Shown in pieces: positions 15,809-48,700 of a stretch of DNA of 64,000 bases. The position numbers and the translations under genes are program-made. Location: the NCBI GenBank assembly GCA_907163375.1, contig CAJQUW010008951.1, forward strand, positions 250,501-314,500. The letters are read 5' to 3'. The DNA comes from Prostheceraeus crozeri (taxonomy: Eukaryota; Platyhelminthes; Polycladida; Euryleptidae). Below the pieces are notes generated by a model. It was given only the letters and a program-made list of their open reading frames with translations, did not search any database and was not told the DNA's origin. Within the stretch, counting starts at the first letter, position 1. Every line of letters starts with the position of its first letter.

Positions 15809-16032
15809 CACTGTAAATCGCTGGATACGAAAATTACATACAAACGTATACCAAAATCACATACAATTTGAAAGTAACATCTGATACGAGATTCTCGTAT
15901 GTTTACAGAGATCTGGTATGTTTTTCATACGAAATCTCACTTACTTTCGTATGTGATTGGTATGTAGCGATACGAACTATTCTGAACAGAGTTTATTCGC
16001 AAACATGTTTCTGTGGCGTCGGTGGCCACCAT

Positions 16033-16662
16033 ACTCTCCATACAAGCTCTATTCAATAGATCACAAAGATTGACTAGTGACCCCCTTGACCGTGAGAACA
16101 ATAAAAATATCGTTCGTGAAATCTTCGTACAAAATGGATATCACCCGAAGCAAATTGAAAGAATATTTGAAAAAAGTCCTAAAAGAAAAAAAATGAAAAT
16201 GAAGACAGTGAAAAAGTAGATATGTACTGGAAATTACCCTTCATCAGTAGTACTTTGAGCGAAATAAAATCCAAGGTCAAGCAAATAAATAGAAGTTTAG
16301 AAAAAATCACGCTGAAAGTTGCCATCACCACCTTGAAAAGTCAAAACTTTGTAAAAAATTAAGACGGAATTCCTTTTGACGAATGCTCTTCCCTCGTATA
16401 CAAATACTCTTGTGAGCTATGCAATAAAAGCTACTTCGGAGAGACTCGTCGCCATTTGCACAAAAGAATTAACGAACACCTTAAAGGACGACCACCATCC
16501 GAAATTTCAATGCACGAGCATATACCAAAGAAAGAAAATTTCAAAATAATGATGAAAACGCTATACACTAAAATTGCTGAATCGCTATACATCAAATCTT
16601 TCACCAACAAGAATCAACTGATGAACAACGACATCCAATCAGAGCCACTTTTACTTTATTGA
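16033..16662 (+). pseudogene. Penelope-like reverse transcriptase C-terminus with GIY-YIG endonuclease
   Basis: The remnant begins with a linker (REIFVQNGYHPKQIERIF) that normally follows the reverse transcriptase thumb. It changes frame near 16205 and passes through one in-frame TAA at about 16360. It then gives LVYKYSCELCNKSYFGETRR followed by HLHKRINEHLKG, the classic GIY-YIG pattern of Penelope-like elements with a CxxC before the second motif. The C-terminal segment ends at a stop at 16660-16662. In the family this endonuclease nicks the target DNA for target-primed reverse transcription. The catalytic reverse transcriptase core is missing by 5' truncation, so the copy is dead. Confidence 0.85.
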
Positions 16663-16719
16663 TTTTCCAGTGATTGTAAATTTGCATAAAAACTAACTCT
16701 TTATTGTATTTTATCTCTA

Positions 16720-16764
16720 TGCACTGATGATGGTGGCCACCGACGCCACAGAAACATGTTTGCG
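16720..16764 (+). ncRNA. Hammerhead ribozyme (type I-like) in the Penelope-like tail
   Basis: The core segment CTGATGA lies at 16724-16730. It is followed by stem II (16731-16737 with 16745-16750, one bulged G, 7-nt loop), GAA at 16751-16753, a palindromic stem III ACATGT (16754-16759), the cleavage-site base T16760, and stem I TGCG (16761-16764), which pairs with TGCA at 16720-16723 (one G-U pair). All conserved core positions of a hammerhead are present, so self-cleavage after 16760 is predicted. Stem III can form only 2 bp around a 2-nt loop. In known Penelope-type hammerheads with such short stem III, cleavage is helped by dimer formation. Confidence 0.75.
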
Positions 16765-17146
16765 AATAAACTCTGTTCAAAATTTACGGCTTCTCTCTCT
16801 CAAAACGAACTATTCTATCTGTGATTGGCTGTTTTACACTGAAATACGAGTTGTTGGCATGTTTTATATACGAGACCCGATGCAAATTCATCCTTATTCG
16901 TATGCCTGTGGCATGTATTTGGTATGTGCAGCTTTAAGTCACATAGCAAGAAATATGTGTATTAAATACTACTGTCAAATAATACTTTCAGTAATACCAG
17001 TCGTGAATATTTTTTGTTTGATGGAGTGGTATTTAACTAGATTAGAGTTATTGTGAACTTAATGCTCCACGAGATTGTCGTCGTTGCTACGTGTCTAGCA
17101 ACATTAACAGGACGCTTAGTTAGCTCTACTTTATGAGCCAAGTTGA

Positions 17147-18576
17147 TACAGTGGTGGCCATAAATTTCAGACCACGTAGATGGCCATAAATTTAGGACCA
17201 CAATGCAAGTAACTAGTTAAGTTATGATGAGCTTGTAATTAAATCCCTCTTTAGAAGTTTGAAAACTAATGAATTCCACCACTTTTTATTATGAGCATAA
17301 TAAAATAATCAATATTTGGTGGTTCCACCACCAGCTTTTATCACTGCGGCAATTCTTCTGGGCATTGATGCCACCAAGTATTGACACAAGTCGGATGATA
17401 TTTCTAACACCCATGCTTCTCGAATAGCATTTTGAAGATCACTCAATGTGGAGGGAGACTTCTTCGACACTCTGACTTTGACGGATTGCCAGAGGTTCTC
17501 GATTGGATTCAGGTCTGGTGAGTTACCAGGCCAATCGAGACCCTCGATGTTGTTGGTAGAAAGCCATGTTGTCACTGATGCCGCTTTATGGCATGGAGCA
17601 GAGTCATGCTGAAATATTTCGCAGTTGTGACAATTCATGAAGGTTGTCAGCTTCTCCTGCAATACTTCTACGTACTTGGATTGATTCATCCTTTCGTTTC
17701 TTGCCATAAACGTGAGACCTCCACGACCTTGACCACTGAAGCATCCCCACACCATTATCTCGCAGGAGGATGCTTTACTGTTGGAGTCACAAATCGAGGA
17801 TTGTAGCGCTCTCCGCTAGGTCGTCGAACAGGACCAGACCGTTTGAACAACTGAAGAGTTGACTCGTCGGACCAAAGAACTTTTCTCCATTGATCCATCG
17901 TCCAATTCTTATAGCGTCGTGCCCATGCAAGTCGAGATTTCTACATTCTTGCGGTTAGTAATGGTTTTCTCGCGGATCTGTACGAGCGAAGATTCATATG
18001 AGCCAAATGTCTACGAACAGATCTGGGAGATAACACAGTTCCATGATCAGCTTACACTTTGGAAACAGAATTGCTTGAAATGAATGGTTGATTTTGGACT
18101 TCTCGGCGGATAAGGCGGTTATCCCTCAAAGTAGTTTTCTTCGGTGCACCTGATCGTGGACGGTCACTTAAGGATTTCACTTCGCGATACTTCACATTGG
18201 CTTGATGTACAGCAGTCTTTGATACATTGAATGTGTTCGCAATATAACGTTCACTACGACCATTTTCATGGTAGGCGACTATCTGCACTCTCACAGTTGG
18301 CTTGATGCTCTTTGCTTTGCCCATTCTCGGATTGTGACAGCTAATCGGTGAGCATTTGTATTTATCCGTTGGAATGTCTTTCAACCAGGAGAGTGGGCGT
18401 CGCTAAACAAAGTTGTGAATTGTAGCTATCTATGAGAAGAATGGTGAGTGACTCATCGTGTCACTAAGACTTTGATGGCTGTAAAAACAAAAGTATGGAG
18501 CAGTAACAGAAGTTGCTAAGTGGTCTTAAATTGATCGCCAAATCTACGTGGTCTTAAGTTAATGGCCACCGCTGTA
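17147..18576 (-). mobile_element. Tc1-like DNA transposon
   Basis: The 1426-bp element at 17149-18574 has inverted ends that begin CAGTGGTGGCCAT (left) and CAGCGGTGGCCAT (right, complement). Each end also contains a second, inner 'ggccat...accac'-type repeat, and each is flanked by TA. This is the standard Tc1 architecture. The element lies inside the larger TA-flanked unit at 15.8-19.1 kb and carries a transposase on the minus strand. Confidence 0.9.
17309..18324 (-). pseudogene. Tc1 transposase, frameshifted
   Basis: The likely start is the ATG at 18324 (MGKAKSIKPTVRVQIVAYHE), followed by a helix-turn-helix DNA-binding region (ERYIANTFNVSKTAVHQ) and the GAPKKTT linker. The catalytic domain shows SDEST at about 17870 (first Asp), then MVWGCFSG, QHDSAPCHK (second Asp) and WPGNSPDLNPIENLW (Glu), i.e. 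a DD34E triad. All three acidic residues are still encoded. The frame is broken between about 18050 and 17760: at least one single-base shift lies just before MVWGCFSG. The length (about 340 codons) is normal for Tc1, so the copy is a recent, lightly damaged one. Confidence 0.88.
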
Positions 18577-35026: not shown

Positions 35027-37809
35027 TTACCATATGTCATGTCTACTGAAGTAGGACGATATAAAGTTTTTGAAGTCGCTTATCGATGAGACGTTTTTCT
35101 CTGAAAATGTCATACGATTCCAATGTTGGACTATATTAACAGTGAAAAAACCACTACGATGCTTATGTTTGGACAAAGGAGTTAACATCAAATTGTGGGA
35201 ACTATTACGATGAGAATATTCGAACAAAATATCAGGCTGTAAACCATTCATCTGATTGACAGTTTCAAACACAAATATCAAGCTGTAACGGAGGCGCCTG
35301 GCAGATAGTCTAAGAAGTCCCAAGTTCATTAACTTAGACCTGTAATTTAATCCATGGAGCTGTGGTAAGAAATTACAAAATCTCTTTTGCACATTTTCAA
35401 TTTGGTTGGAAAGCTTATCAATATTTGGATGCCAAATAACACAACCATACTCCAAAATAGACCGGACGAACGTTTTATAAGGGATCAAAAGCATGAAAGG
35501 ATCCCGTAAGCGAATTGACCTTTTAATCATACCCAAAACTTTGTTTGCCTTCATAACAGTAGCATGTATATGTTCCTTGAAATTGATTGATGTTGACAAA
35601 GTAATACCCAAGTCATTCACAAGAACAGCTCTACTTAATACTAGTAATTGATCTTTTATCCTGTAATCAAAAAGAGAATTGCCACAACCAAAATGAATAG
35701 CATTAGATTTATTCACGTTTAATGATTGACCGTTCGAAGTTCCACATAGCTATTCTATTAATATCAGCTTGTAACAAATGGCAGTGTGCAGATAATTTTC
35801 CCATATTCATAATAAGCTTGACATCGTCGGCGTACTTGATTATCTCACAGCTTTTGACATGGCCATCGAGGTCGTCAATGAAAAAAGTAAATAAGATGGG
35901 ACCAAGGACAGTTCCTTGTATGACCCCACTTTTTATCAGCACAGGAGACGAGTATTTCCCACCAATACGTACCACTTGAGTTCTATTACGAAAGTAATCG
36001 GTCAGCCATTTGAAAAGGTTTCCTCTAACACCATATATCCATAGTTTATTCAACAATAGGTTATGGTGCACACTGTCAAATGCCTTCGCGAAGTCAAATA
36101 ATGTCACATCGATGCAGTTGCCTTTGTCTAATTCCTTTGTCAAAATGTCATAGAACATGATGCCTGCAGTGTCCGTAGATTTTCCTGGAACAAAACCATG
36201 TTGAGATTCTGGAAAGTGCCCATTAGCATAAAAAGCAATAAGAAGGGATTTATGAATTATTCGTTCTAATATACGGCATACTGTGCTAGAAAATCCAACA
36301 GGACGATAATTACAACACAAATTCTTCGGCCCAGACTTATGAATTGGTGAAATAACAACTTCGCGCCAACCATCTGGGATAGAAGCAGATGACATAATAA
36401 GTGAAAATAATATGGCCAATTTACTTGCTAAAAATACACCACCTTTCTTGATAATATAGTAGCAGAGCCCTTCTTTATCAGTCGATTGAGAATTTGGGAG
36501 ATTACAAATCACTTCGTGTACGTTATCACAATCAAAGTTCACATTATCCACAATTATATCAACATTACACGCCAAGCCATCATGAAAAACATGGTCAGGA
36601 GCACAATTGAAGTTCGACGAGAAATACTCATTGAATCGATTGGCAATCGATAATGGATTAGTCAAAAGTTCAGCGTCGGCGTCGGATAACGAATTAATTG
36701 GATGATTCAATTTCAACCTACTTCGAATGTATTTCCAAAAAGTTTTGCTACCTGACCCATTACCAATACCAGCACAGATTTCACGCTCCTTGTCTAATAT
36801 GCCTTTCCCTACTGCGAATTGAACTTTTTCTTGAGCTTGTCGGTACCTCCAATGATTATGAGAAGAAGGATGATTTTTGAAAGATGAGTATGCACGACGA
36901 GCGCCCGATATGCTGTTCTGACCTTAGCTGTGATATTATATTCTGATCTTTTTCTACGAAGTTGGACAGGTATGCATCCCAAATAGCGTTGATATCACGA
37001 AGAAAATTGAAACTCGATGGCCAGAATGCAGTCTGAAGACTTTGATAGAAAATGTTCCAATTGGCGTTGTTATAATCATGATAATAAACATTAACTTGCT
37101 CATTAGTATCATAATCGTAAGGAAGCTCGATGTCGTAGGTAACGATGCCATGATCAGATTTACCAAAATTCTCACAAACATTGACCTTATTAACATTTAC
37201 ATCGTTGGATGAAAAAACAAGATCCAATAATGTTTTGGATTGTGGACGAGTAGATTTGGTAACATTTTGAGACAAAAAATTGTCCAGACACCAATTCAAA
37301 ATTGGGGCATTAGAAGATGATGCATCACATAAATTCCAATTAATTTGAGGACAGTTGAAATCCTCACAAATTATAGACAAATCTGGACATAAATTCACAA
37401 CATCATATAAATGAGACAAAATTGAACTATCTTGCAGTAGATAATCGGGAGGAATGTAGACACAAGAAATCAACAAGCTATCCTCCTCATTCAAAATAAT
37501 CTTACATGTGACAGATTCAGCCTTACCGTCATCATAACAGAAATCATTGACCAACACAGAAGAAATATTGTTTGAAACATATATAATGACACCACCTCCA
37601 AGAGATTGGGCTCTATCACAACGATAACATGAATAGCCATTGATGTAAAAATAAGCATCAGAAAACGAAGCAGTGCCCCAAGATTCAGTGACACATACAA
37701 TAGTCGGGTTATTCTGAATAACATACATACGAAGTAAATCAATTTTATTTACCAACAAGCGAGCATTAATCAGAAAACATTTTAGAGAAGAATTATTGCT
37801 CATGCACAT
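35027..37809 (-). pseudogene. LINE ORF2: APE endonuclease and reverse transcriptase, two frameshifts
   Basis: The likely start is ATG 37809. The endonuclease (37809-36856) shows CVTESW, GGGVIIYVSNN, YIPPD, EDFNCPQINW and KSDHGIV. The usual GDFN box reads EDFN but keeps Asp and Asn, and the catalytic SDH is intact. A frameshift near 36890 moves into the frame that reads ARRAYSSFKNHPSSHNHWRY and on into the reverse transcriptase (to 35709), with QHGFVPGKST, FDFAKAFDSVHHNLL, SGVIQGTVLGPILF and the catalytic YADDVKLI. A second frameshift near 35715 leads into the C-terminal part (35716-35027), which ends in SSYFSRHDIW. About 930 codons in total is normal for the group. In life it would nick DNA and copy its RNA in place; this copy cannot make the full protein. 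Confidence 0.88.
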
Positions 37810-38011
37810 AGAGGATTTGCCAATGGTATACTTATCTGAAGGAATTTCAGAAAATGAATGAAAACTAAAAAATAGCGCTGAGATACAATGAAACGTTTTA
37901 GGATAGAAAACACTAAGAAATGTTAGGTAACTGCGGATCGTTCACGTGAATCGTTAATGCTAGCATCCCTATCAACACTTCAGAATAGCTGATTAGATAT
38001 TGACATCTCAT

Positions 38012-38721: not shown

Positions 38722-40514
38722 ATTCGGCCTATTGCAGAACTCGGGGTTAGCATAACTGCGAGTTAAGTTAACCTTCACTCATTTAGCTGGCAGTTACAAC
38801 AGCAACTGCGAACGCGTTGCAGAAGTCGCAGTTAAAATAACTGGCAGTTAAACATGGAATTCCCTTGCCAGGAATTGACCCAGTTAACACAATTTGACGT
38901 CACTGTTTCCATAACAATAGGGGAGTGATAACGTCTCTGCTCTCGTCTGGTCTACAACGATGCAGAAAAGAATCGTCTTATGGATATTGCTGAAGAGTCT
39001 CAACTGGCCGACATCATAGAAAGCAAAATGATATCTGTATCTGTGCGGGACATCAATTAATTAGACTCTATTTATTGCGCGGTAGCCTAGACGCAAGAGC
39101 CCACATGCGCTAATAGCAAACAACTATATGTACATGTACCTGTACGAGAATTGTAGGCCTACCTGTACCATGCAGTGTAATGGTGCATGCTAAGTACAGT
39201 ACCCCTAAGAAGTTGCAATGAAAAGCGACATCCGTTTCCAAAAATGTCTTTTTATTATCAACGTTGTCTGTCAAAAGTGGTTCTCAATAAACTCAGATCG
39301 AAATTGCATACCAGTACCTGTCGAAATAGTGTCAGATGAAGTAGATTCAAAGGAAGCATCGTCGGCTGTGTTTTCAATGTCGAATGTATCAAACTGAGAA
39401 ATCAGGAAATTGTGCAAGACAGCACAAGCAACGACAGTTCTACCAACCTTCTCAGGTGACAATCGCATACCATTCAGTAAACATTGAAACCTCTGTTTCA
39501 TGACACCGAAACGCCTTTCGATGACATTTCTTGTTTTGATATGAGCGTAGTTGTAGCGACTTTCTTTCGAAGTATTCGCCACACGAAGGGGAGTGAGCAA
39601 ATACTTTCTGCAAGCATAGCCGGCATCTCCTAGTAATATTCCATCGTGATCCCCGTTCTTGAATTGAGCACATAGTCGAGAATTATCGAATATGCGTGAA
39701 TCATGTGTACTTCCGCACCAACGAGCAACTATGTTTGTAATTTTCTAAGTGGCGTCACAAGTTGCTTGAACATTCAGCGAAAAATAATTCTTCCTGTTAC
39801 GATAGTGTTCATGTTCCGTGTTGGATGGTCTTGTGATCCGAATATGAGTACAGTCGATTGCAGATATGACTCGAGGAAATTGGGCTATTCTGTAGAAATC
39901 TTCCTTTGTTGATAAAAGCTCAGCAGCTTTTGGAAATTTGATGAAATCAGACCGACGCTTGCACAAAGAGAGCACTACCTTGTGAAATGCACGCATTGCA
40001 GTCGTCTTATGAACTCCAATTGTACCAGCCACTAGCCAAAAGAATGAGCCCGATGTCATGTATGCGATGCCGAGTGCAAGGGTCTGAATGGGTTGAAGGG
40101 AATAGCTTTTGTCCTGACCATTTTGAATATCGACTTCGATCAGATCGCACAATGTGCAAAAGGAATGCTTCATCATTCGAAAATGTTCGAAGAAATCATC
40201 GTCACTGAAAAATTTGAGGGGATTCCTTCGGTCAAGAATGCGTCGCTCAGGTGAAACAATTTCCGACAGAGTATCTGCCAACTCAGTTGCTTCAATAGAT
40301 TCCATCAGAAATCAAGCTACGAATGAAGAATATGTGACAGTTAGACCATTTAACCCTCACTCGGTGGAGGTTAAATTTTGCAATGTGTTTTCTTAACTGC
40401 CAGTTAACTTTAACTGGCAGTTACTTAACTCTCAATTCTGCACCTCATCGTTGAAAGTTAAATCGAAATTTAACTGCCAGTTAGCTTAACTCCGAGTTCT
40501 GCAATAGGCCCATT
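38722..40514 (-). mobile_element. PIF-Harbinger transposon with 3-bp target duplication
   Basis: The element at 38725-40511 has inverted ends reading GGGCCTATTGCAGAACTC (right end, complement; the left end has C in place of the first G) and is flanked by ATT on both sides (38722-38724 and 40512-40514). Subterminal sequence is rich in inverted taactgGCAGTTA words. A 3-bp duplication and a HARBI1-type transposase define the superfamily. The second protein normally encoded by such elements (Myb/SANT-like) was not found; 38725-39270 is 0.5 kb without a convincing frame. Confidence 0.9.
39271..40305 (-). pseudogene. HARBI1-type transposase with a single in-frame stop
   Basis: One continuous frame of about 344 codons runs from ATG 40305 to the stop at 39271. 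It is interrupted only by a TAG at 39747-39745. The DDE-type nuclease domain is complete: AIDCTHIRI (first Asp), WCGSTHDSRIF (second Asp), LLGDAGY and ERRFGVMKQRFQCLL (Glu), then AVLHNFL near the end. The N-terminal half carries FSDDDFFEHFRM and LALGIAYMTSGSFFWLVAGT, usual for Harbinger transposases. The stop lies between the first and second catalytic Asp, so the protein is truncated. Length and everything else look intact, indicating recent inactivation or an error at one base. Confidence 0.88.
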
Positions 40515-45700: not shown

Positions 45701-48700
45701 CTGATGACCTGATCTGGCATGTACTTTATCATCAAGAAACGACTTCTAGAAATGTTCAAATCAACCTATTCAAATATTCAAATTCAACAACATTCATCTT
45801 GCTATCGTTATTTGATGTAGCATTCTTCTTTGCTCAAATTTATTACCACAATCCATTATTCATTTCACTGTCGTGCCTTGTCGAAAATGTAAAGCATGTT
45901 CGCAGATCGCATCACATATCAAAACAAAAGGCATGTAGCTTAAGTATTGATTGCTCGATCATATTTATTATTCCCAAAGTTTTTCTTGTGTAATTATATG
46001 GGAGTGAGAACGAAAATGACGTTATGATAACTTTGACAACCCGCCTTGTCTTAACCTTCGAACTAAAATAGATAAACATTGTGAAACATCGATGAGACCT
46101 AAATGAAATATCAGTGAAACATTTCAAACTAAATTTTATCTGTGAGTAAAAAATTTCAAGGAAAAATTGAAAAGCCACAAAACAGATAGGCTACTACTCA
46201 GAGAGAGATTGATTTTCTCATTGTTTGTTACCACTATTCAAGTAAAAGTTAAAATCTGTGAGAGTGTGACAGCTCGACTGGAGTCACCCTCATTTAACTA
46301 CTTGAAGAAAGCATTATTGTCTATTTCTATAAAATTTCAGGTTGCATATCAATAGTGCCATTCAATACTCAGTCAATAGTGAAGTTCCTTATCGAAGGAA
46401 ATGCACACTATCCTCGTTCCTCCGTCAAGATCTTTATAAAATTCATAAAATCATAGTTTATACTACAGGATCAGTTTTCATGTGCAGATACATTCGATAT
46501 TTTTTTCAAAAACCAGATTAATTTAGTGTTACTGAGCGTTTGATTCTGATAATCTGCAGTATCGCAAATATATCAGAGATTGGCAAGAATAAAAAGAATA
46601 AAATTTTTTTAAGGGCCAATCAAAATATAAGTGATCTTTTTCTATACAGCAACACAAGAAACTGCCTTGTCGAGTATGCTATTCTTGCCACAGTCATTCT
46701 TAATTACATGCATACATTCATGGTTGGAAACGGCCGCCGGTCGAGCCAGGCTGTAAGTTTTGAAGACCGGCCGGCCGACTGCTCACTGCGCTGGCCTGCC
46801 GGTTGATTTAATTAGCCTCATGTCGACTGCTGGCGGCATTCATTCTAGAATTAATGATTCACTCAATGAAATTGATAGCAACATTGACAGAGCATGTAAT
46901 TGTAGGACTGTTTAAGAATGCCTATGTTATGTGACATAGATATCGCGACCGTTTCTTAAACTTTGAAAATTTAAGCTTATAACTGTAGTTTCAAACCCTA
47001 TCTCAAATGAGGTTTCCAGGATCGTATATTTTATCGCACATGAGTTTTGTAAGAACTGTACTTTCTTTGGTCTTTTCATCGTAAAATTATTCGCTATCTT
47101 GAATAATTTAATGACATGGGATAGATAGTTTACATAACATTTGAAGTTTAGTAATGATTGAATTTCAACACTGCATAGTAGGGCCCGCTGCGTGAACATT
47201 TGGATCGTGAATCATTGTTTGATAAGTAAGCGGCATGTGAAGGATTTTGATTGACGTTGTACATGGCACCACAAAAAGTCGCTGAGAACTTGCTGAAAGA
47301 AAAACTTGATGACATCTTTGGCGAGCTCTTTATTCCAGTCGCTTGTATATTACGTCAACTCGCGGTTATCAATATTAATAGAAAATATCTGCATTTGAAC
47401 TCATCTAACCCCCCTCACAAGTGAGGAAGTAAATATCACTTTATTGAATCGAGTTTGATGATGTAATTTCAAATGGAATATAGTAGGCCGACATTGCGCA
47501 AAACAGACATACCGTCAGGGATTACCCCGTTCTTCCTTATACATACTTATTGTGCTGTTTGGGTCATTATTTTGTTTTCCATGATCAGGTACTTGCAAAT
47601 GATTGAGTTTGAAAATGCAGTAATTGAACTCAATATTGACATTATTATTTTTGTAAGCTCTATCGTAGGCCTATGACTCATTAGATTGACAAATATGTCA
47701 CTACATGTATTGCTGCTCTGTCTTGACCATCGCAAAAAACAATGTTTCGTCAAAGCAGGAAAGCTAGCAGCTAACAAATGACCTGATTGGATATCAAATT
47801 GGATAGAAACTGATAACATTCAGTAGACCTACATCAATTTGAGCTCTGTCGTTTGATGTCTATTGAGCTTAATATGATCCTCTACTTTTCCAAGTGGGCT
47901 GGGACTTCGTGTTTTCTATTGATCACTTTTCTGGCCACAAGGGATTTTTTCTCAAAAGTGGTGGATGTGACCTATGAATTTTAAAATCAACAATCACCAA
48001 ATTATTGACGCAGGATTAATTGCGTGATGTTCTTAACATGCATTCTATACCGCAAAAATACGTTTAATGCTTCTCAAAAGACTACAAAAATTGGTCTTAC
48101 ACTTCACTTTCGAGTTTGAAATACATGATTTTATGATTTATTCCATTTCGCGGTTATTTCATTTCAGTGCTGATTTTCAGATCGTCTATAGTGATGTTTA
48201 CTTAGTTGTCGACTTTAATATTCGATTAAATAAAAAATAAACGAGTTTTATAGACTTAATGAACTCATCCATAATCTGCAGACCACATTTATCATAAAAC
48301 GCTTCTAAGGAGCACTAGAAATTAGTGATATCCAAGGATAGGCCATTAACTATCGTAGCGACAATCGTGACAAGTAATATATGAAGCAAATTTTACTCCT
48401 TCAATATTATCATTATCAGAAAATAAAAATCATAGAACCAGTCGATTGTTTGAAACTAGCAACAAATATTACAATTGGCAGTTATATAGTATCAGAAATT
48501 ATATCCGATGATATGGGAAAACCAAAAAGAAGCGTTTACATTGCATTCAAGCTTATATAAACTCGGAATATTTGCCTACGAGGCTCCCGCAAACTTCATG
48601 ACATTGGAATTTCTCATAGTCTTGTATATCTTGATTCTCCAACGCATGGAAGAAGATGGAATTGTCAAGTTCTATCATTAAGTTGGAAATTGTAGCAATT

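Follow-up and report, generated by a model that had tools for sequence, protein, structure and literature searches.

Minimal type I hammerhead ribozymes (HHRs) of Penelope-like elements (PLEs) were reportedly described by Cervera and de la Pena in 2014 and by Lunse, Weinberg and Breaker in 2017. The relevant passages of published accounts give these ribozymes a hammerhead core, a tiny stem III, a place in the pseudo-repeat of the element and an arrangement in tandem units (PMC7761336, PMC6466107), and minimal variants are reported that lack helix III or the loop-loop tertiary contacts of canonical type I (PMC7761336). The role of the hammerhead in PLEs is called a mystery in a passage of a 2020 review (PMC7761336). 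In the Poseidon PLE of Anolis carolinensis, PAc, the start codon lies at the start of stem II and the cut falls 26 bp downstream; the Anolis HHR showed no cleavage when its protein was absent, and Frangieh et al. found that HHR mutants still insert in vitro, that unprocessed RNA is the main insertion substrate in vitro, and that no RNA-seq reads start or end at the cut (PMC11167929). The Penelope elements of Adineta vaga are described, in the sections that deal with their structure, as carrying inverted pseudo-repeats, target duplications of 8-10 bp and an optional 31-bp tail on one repeat (PMC3846280).

The window analysed here is a stretch of 64,000 nucleotides. On its letters, the segment at 16720-16764 of the plus strand is a minimal type I hammerhead of the dimer-type PLE kind, an assignment to which direct reading, a strict motif scan and a covariance model (R2, described below) all point. 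The segment reads TGCA-CTGATGA-(20 nt)-GAA-ACATGT-T-TGCG, and the type I features CUGANGA, stem II, GAA, A15.1-U16.1 and H17 are present in order, with the ribozyme open at stem I. The original prediction had named these parts (CTGATGA, stem II, GAA, ACATGT, T16760 and a 4-bp stem I), and all of them are in the letters in the order claimed. Stem I joins TGCA at 16720-16723 to TGCG at 16761-16764 through 4 bp, one of them a G.U pair. The catalytic core CUGAUGA occupies 16724-16730, and AUGAUG at 16727-16732 (A6-U7-G8 and A9-U-G of the HHR core) is the ORF start in intact members of F1, the family to which the window copy belongs. The stem II region, 16731-16750, has 5 bp (16733-16737 with 16745-16749) around the loop CACCGAC, and its base is left unpaired at T16731 and G16732 on the 5' side and at A16750 on the 3' side, the alternative being 6 bp with a one-base bulge; a 10-nt palindrome, GGTGGCCACC, lies inside this region at 16732-16741. 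The core GAA at 16751-16753 is followed at 16754-16759 by the stem III palindrome ACAUGU, which closes no hairpin alone and can pair only with a second copy, and whose pairing is therefore predicted to be intermolecular. The cut, which we assign by the hammerhead rule, is predicted 3' of U16760 (H17), between 16760 and 16761.

By chance a window should hold 0.52 matches to the bare core CTGATGA-N6..36-GAAAC; this one holds two, so the core is by itself little proof of a ribozyme. The second match, at 45701-45740, is passed over by the strict scan and by the covariance models. The strict motif adds stem I, stem II, the A....T positions and H17 to the core, with or without a palindromic stem III. 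Without the demand for a palindrome it is matched 16 times in 1000 composition-matched first-order Markov windows, and with the palindrome it is matched in none of the 1000 simulated windows and once in the real one. Rfam yields nothing at the gathering threshold across the whole window, and at E<=10 over 16600-16900 it yields two unrelated weak matches and no hammerhead. It likewise yields no hammerhead in four sister-family flanks that bear the same motif, which indicates that the Rfam models miss the minimal PLE kind; an Rfam match is not a defining feature of that kind. The covariance model R2 was built from sister families F2, F3 and F5 only, with F1 excluded. Its top match in the window is 16720-16764, at 26.5 bits (E 6e-5), and it also matches a further family, F4 (17.6 bits, E 0.018). 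The expectation that a covariance model would recognise the motif thus fails for Rfam but is borne out by R2, which is independent of F1. A chance resemblance with no ribozyme history could appeal to the expected count of the bare core and to the missing Rfam hammerhead match; it is extremely improbable, and was discarded on the simulation, copy and family counts, given that the full motif arose in no simulated window, that F1 has at least 100 exact copies of its 39-nt stretch in the genome, that the motif stands at the equivalent place in five families, and that an independent covariance model matches it.

The element that carries the ribozyme is a single PLE insertion, short, dead and arranged head to head, at 15984-16804: a 49-bp inverted piece is followed by a 5'-truncated sense ORF, by the HHR-bearing pseudo-repeat and by a 26-nt tail. 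It is flanked by the target-site duplication ACGAACTATTCT, present at 15972-15983 on the left and at 16805-16816 on the right with 12/12 positions identical. The inverted cDNA piece at 15984-16032 (minus strand) is a 100% reverse complement of 16730-16778 and holds the tail-less end and the 3' half of the HHR; it ends at sense-copy position 16730, so that CUGAUG is missing, and it was rejected as a second ribozyme, with model R1 giving only 18.8 bits over model positions 11-39. The ORF remnant at 16037-16662 (plus strand) appears in the ORF list and corresponds to residues 597-803 of the ORF found in a tandem array of F1, with 96-98% identity by tblastn. Two lesions in this remnant make the window copy dead: the frame is broken near 16190-16200, and an in-frame stop codon follows at 16360-16362. 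Its natural stop codon, at 16660-16662, lies 57 nt before the HHR, a distance that had been put at 60 nt. Beyond the HHR, site B at 16778 is the inner reverse-transcription start, at which or within a few nucleotides of which tail-less ends stop, and the 26-nt tail at 16779-16804 leads to site A, the outer reverse-transcription start, at 16804. Among 104 distinct ends holding the site B sequence, 54 are tailed and 50 are tail-less.

Intact ORFs of 803 residues occur in the F1 tandem array on contig C7542 (L009, L010), whose units are seamless and about 2476 bp long, and such an ORF contains an RVT_1 domain (4.3e-14). A GIY-YIG match in the window remnant reaches 18.6 bits (E 0.0024; Pfam cut-off 22.6), and a search of the complete 803-residue array ORF at E<=0.1 does not list this domain. 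The 27-nt end of the pseudo-repeat, with at most one mismatch, is found at 157 sites in the 2.05 Gb genome (reversed control 0), and a 39-nt stretch of the HHR has at least 100 exact genomic copies. Judged by its sequence traits, namely a single ORF with reverse transcriptase, pseudo-repeats, tandem units, an inverted 5' copy, a tail and a target duplication, the host element is Penelope-like, of the Penelope/Poseidon type. The description of it as a young PLE agrees with the reverse transcriptase domain, with the closeness of the remnant to the intact ORF and with the similarity of F1 copies to one another (mostly 95-99% identity), and the ribozyme does sit, as proposed, in a terminal repeat of the element, its terminal pseudo-repeat. 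A retrozyme, which is a short non-autonomous repeat with no ORF, is ruled out by the 803-residue ORF that F1 encodes. Relatives outside the source genome were sought with one single-protein query each in viral contigs, genome contigs and phages, and none was found.

Several other mobile elements share the window. The PLE itself is nested in an AT-rich stretch with GTATGTGATTGGTATGT-like motifs scattered on both sides (~15830-15970 and 16850-16960), perhaps an older non-autonomous transposon. On the minus strand there are a Tc1/mariner-like element at 17155-18570 (DDE_3, 4.3e-14; a Sleeping Beauty HTH below cut-off; inverted ends by eye), a LINE-like element at 35030-37941 with Exo_endo_phos_2 and RVT_1 in overlapping frames, and transposase pieces with DDE_Tnp_4 at 39274-40311, which we take to be PIF/Harbinger-like.

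The same genome contains sister families of this PLE. Among the 56 matches listed by a protein search, identity is about 57-62% for F2, 49-52% for F3 and F5, and 44-46% for F4. F2 is larger than F1: its pseudo-repeat end is found at 439 sites (29 nt, 1 mismatch) and an 87-nt version of it at 365 sites (3 mismatches), and its tandem array on contig C2550, in which copies face either way, is built of seamless units of about 2465 bp. The comparison of ribozymes used 31 stretches beside sister PLE ORFs (L068-L098); because four of these are upstream flanks of elements sampled downstream too, the number of elements is smaller than 31. An intact core (CUGANGA and GAA) is present in 27 of the 31 stretches (13 from F2, 7 from F3, 6 from F4 and 1 from F5), a mutated core in three (L076, L092, L093) and no core in one (L075), and the HHR core is thus common to the five PLE families F1-F5. 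Stem III is ACAUGU in F1, F2 and F5, ACGCGU in F3 and AGCGCU in F4, and the palindrome is perfect in all 27 intact sister cores, counting three sequences across the families. These hexamer palindromes cannot form hairpins, and their self-complementarity outlasts changes of letters, which suggests pairing between two ribozymes. The three palindromes may represent only two or three independent changes.

Covariation in stems I and II was assessed in nine distinct related rows from F1, F2, F3 and F5; F4 was omitted because MAFFT shifted it by one column. In these nine related rows, which come from few families, double changes are seen at 4 of the 8 pairs in stems I and II together and at 2 of the 4 pairs of stem I alone. 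The cells of the two stems are paired in 93.1% of cases, compared with 86.3% in shuffles and at most 44% when the partners are slid.

Two ribozymes most likely act together as a dimer, either on two transcripts or within a single tandem transcript, on two of its units. Dimeric action had been proposed in the original prediction, and it gains from the palindrome being kept across sequence change, but the HHR dimer is not the lowest-energy predicted fold in any of the five families. For F1, a nearest-neighbour model gives -21.6 kcal/mol for the HHR dimer, -22.4 kcal/mol for two monomers, and -34.1 to -35.5 kcal/mol for the best predicted dimer, which forms through the GGUGGCCACC palindrome. The predicted fold of the 61-nt F1 monomer is no more stable than that of shuffled sequences (z -0.47), and the stem I mismatch TCCA is present in 4 of the 6 distinct HHR copies in the C7542 array. 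For F2, where stem I has one mismatch, the HHR dimer is very weak (-1.6 kcal/mol).

The relation between the ribozyme and the ORF was determined by tracing the reading frame upstream at five loci of four families (F1-F4, with F5 outside the sample). In all four families the start codon of the ORF lies inside the HHR, either 5' of the cut or across it, and the frame opens only within the HHR in F2-F4 and slightly above it in F1. Counted from the first base past the cut, the A of the in-frame AUG is at -34 and -31 in F1, at -5 in F2 (where the AUG is part of ACAUGU), at -19 and -1 in F3, and at -1 in F4; at position -1, in F3 and F4, the scissile bond splits the A from the UG of the AUG. In F1, the family in which the ORF interior was read, the next methionine is only at residue 157. 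Since the start codon is 5' of the cut or across it, cleavage would, in all four families, leave the ORF without the start codons that lie upstream. The A9-U-G of the core was considered as the ORF start in every family and rejected: the in-frame AUG of F1 differs from those of F2-F4, in which the main ORF begins later, still inside the HHR. The overlap could in part be a consequence of the position at which the pseudo-repeat chances to join the ORF. It has been seen in the literature for Anolis (PMC11167929), and we do not claim start-codon overlap in general as unpublished; its occurrence across families is the most useful lead obtained here.

Whether integrated copies derive from cut or uncut RNA can be read from how far they extend. 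The 39-nt stretch up to the cut is found at 140 genomic sites (2 mismatches allowed; the 100 listed are all exact), and 126 of these 140 HHR copies run at least 18 nt beyond the cut (57-mer, 2 mismatches); the remaining 14 may carry additional mutations or end sooner. Of 115 sites at the sampled loci, 112 match the 18 positions past the cut at 14 or more of them; of the remaining three, two run on for roughly 10 nt, and L014 falls about 3 nt short of the cut. Because most sampled loci were picked by sequence past the cut, the genome-wide proportion is the fairer count, and it implies that most integrated copies arose from RNA that was uncut at this site. As a rule, then, cleavage at the site equivalent to U16760 would not be the usual step before integration, and insertions that end at the cut, as expected from a cleaved RNA template, are ruled out for most copies, L014 being a possible exception. 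A pile-up of cDNA 5' ends at the cut was also looked for: no end falls exactly there among the 107 mapped (of 111 ends), nor does any among 110 blocks, where the nearest is 4 nt off. The derivation of copies from uncut RNA agrees with the insertion of HHR mutants and with the read data of Frangieh et al. (PMC11167929).

These results bear on the reading of the HHR as a relic, in which little or no catalytic activity is left and the sequence persists for its use as start-codon context, as a promoter or as a protein-binding site. Such a relic would accord with the competing predicted folds, with the preponderance of uncut templates and with the independence of Anolis PLE insertion in vitro from HHR cleavage (PMC11167929), but it leaves unexplained why CUGANGA and GAA are kept in 27 of 31 sister stretches while the stems co-change and stem III stays palindromic, a pattern of conservation that use as a promoter or start codon does not predict. 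We regard it as quite unlikely.

Short F1 cDNAs, considered separately, stop inside the HHR (window 16730-16750). Of the 107 mapped cDNAs, 23 have an inner end at a distance of 29-58 nt from site B, with 11 falling at 38-43 nt (window 16736-16741); 5 more end at 59-87 nt and 6 at 88-116 nt. The three counts become 20, 4 and 5 without the short-pair picks L099-L102, and L044/L045 and L064/L066 are duplicate loci. The cluster in the HHR could be produced by reverse transcriptase stalled on folded or paired RNA, or could reflect RNA 5' ends.

The two ends of an insertion differ. In 41 of 42 outward-facing end pairs one end is tailed and the other tail-less, which fits a process in which both DNA ends are extended from two RNA start sites, as demonstrated in vitro for the Anolis element (PMC11167929). 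For this count, loci with common flanks (L024 and L027; L064 and L066) enter once and the duplicated locus L044/L045 enters twice; L028 is paired by hand with its outermost end, beyond an internal unit boundary, nearest-end pairing having given a same-kind pair; and single ends without a partner are left out, together with L014, L036 and L059, whose tail-less end is short of site B. The sole same-kind pair, L020 (C692:701500-709000), consists of two tailed F1 ends that face outward with identical flanks; it resembles a single end duplicated in inverted orientation, or an assembly artefact. A flank repeat of 12 bp is the commonest (15 of 41 pairs); 5 of 41 have none, and the flank matches of 6-7 bp in 7 of 41 may be chance.

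A rival reading makes it the chief task of the HHR to cut tandem transcripts to units; a host RNA ligase would circularise these and so rebuild the AUG, and the circle would template long tandem copies in a retrozyme-like manner. The seamless arrays of F1 and F2 speak for this, as do the L028 insertion, which at 2593 nt is longer than one unit and passes through its internal HHR, and the animal retrozymes, whose dimeric HHRs are described, in the part of the source concerned with them, as cut and as ligatable into circles (PMC7229834). The arrays are equally explained by linear tandem transcripts or by unequal crossing-over, however, and the mapped ends and blocks include no cDNA 5' end exactly at the cut; the circular route is accordingly judged unlikely. 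A related proposal makes the HHR a conserved start-codon switch, in which ligated circles restore the AUG, only uncut tandem RNA or circles are translated, and circles are copied into arrays. It is, in our estimation, quite unlikely; if it were true, cleavage would cut the AUG off the ORF, in two families between its A and U.

The account that we think probable is that of a minimal PLE hammerhead which is active as a dimer, contains the start codon and limits translation, with copies made mainly from uncut RNA. For catalysis, dimerisation and the role in translation, we infer the following course. Two ribozymes would dimerise through the self-complementary stem III hexamer, cleavage would sever the start codon from the ORF, and the HHR would in this way limit the translation of multi-unit transcripts and trim them. 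New copies would come mainly from RNA uncut at the HHR site, by reverse transcription that is probably primed on both DNA ends and that would start at two sites, one 18 nt and the other about 44 nt past the cut.

The class to which this ribozyme belongs is already known, including its dimeric cleavage. Compared with the minimal PLE hammerheads in the relevant passages of the published accounts, it matches in the core, the tiny stem III, the pseudo-repeat site, the tandem arrangement and the expected dimeric cleavage, and shows no difference from what those passages describe that would take it out of the class. The animal retrozymes and the satellite hammerheads of newt and axolotl likewise have a weak palindrome-capped stem III and work better as dimers, in the portion of the source that treats them; they are non-autonomous repeats, with RNAs of about 170-400 nt, and that portion mentions no ORF in the ribozyme (PMC7229834). 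The Adineta vaga Penelope elements resemble the present ones, in the sections on their structure, in their inverted pseudo-repeats, their short target duplications and the tail on one inverted repeat, and the main text of that paper does not use the words hammerhead or ribozyme (PMC3846280). The likeness to PAc extends to the start codon in the HHR, the tandem units and the two reverse-transcription starts that bound the tail, and the start-codon overlap is thus known from Anolis too; in the PAc assay, however, the authors found the start site alike on both strands, whereas here each insertion has one tailed and one tail-less end (PMC11167929). The position of the cut also differs: in PAc it is 26 bp downstream of the start codon, whereas it lies 31 nt past the start of the nearest in-frame AUG in F1 and 5 nt past it in F2, and splits A from UG in F3 and F4. 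The present genome offers several divergent PLE families for comparison, one or more of them young. The HHR is kept in them as a dimer-suited motif, and across F1-F4 the register of its overlap with the start codon varies, but the cut never precedes the AUG. Set against the known systems, these families sharpen the question of the hammerhead's role in PLEs to whether cleavage switches off translation.
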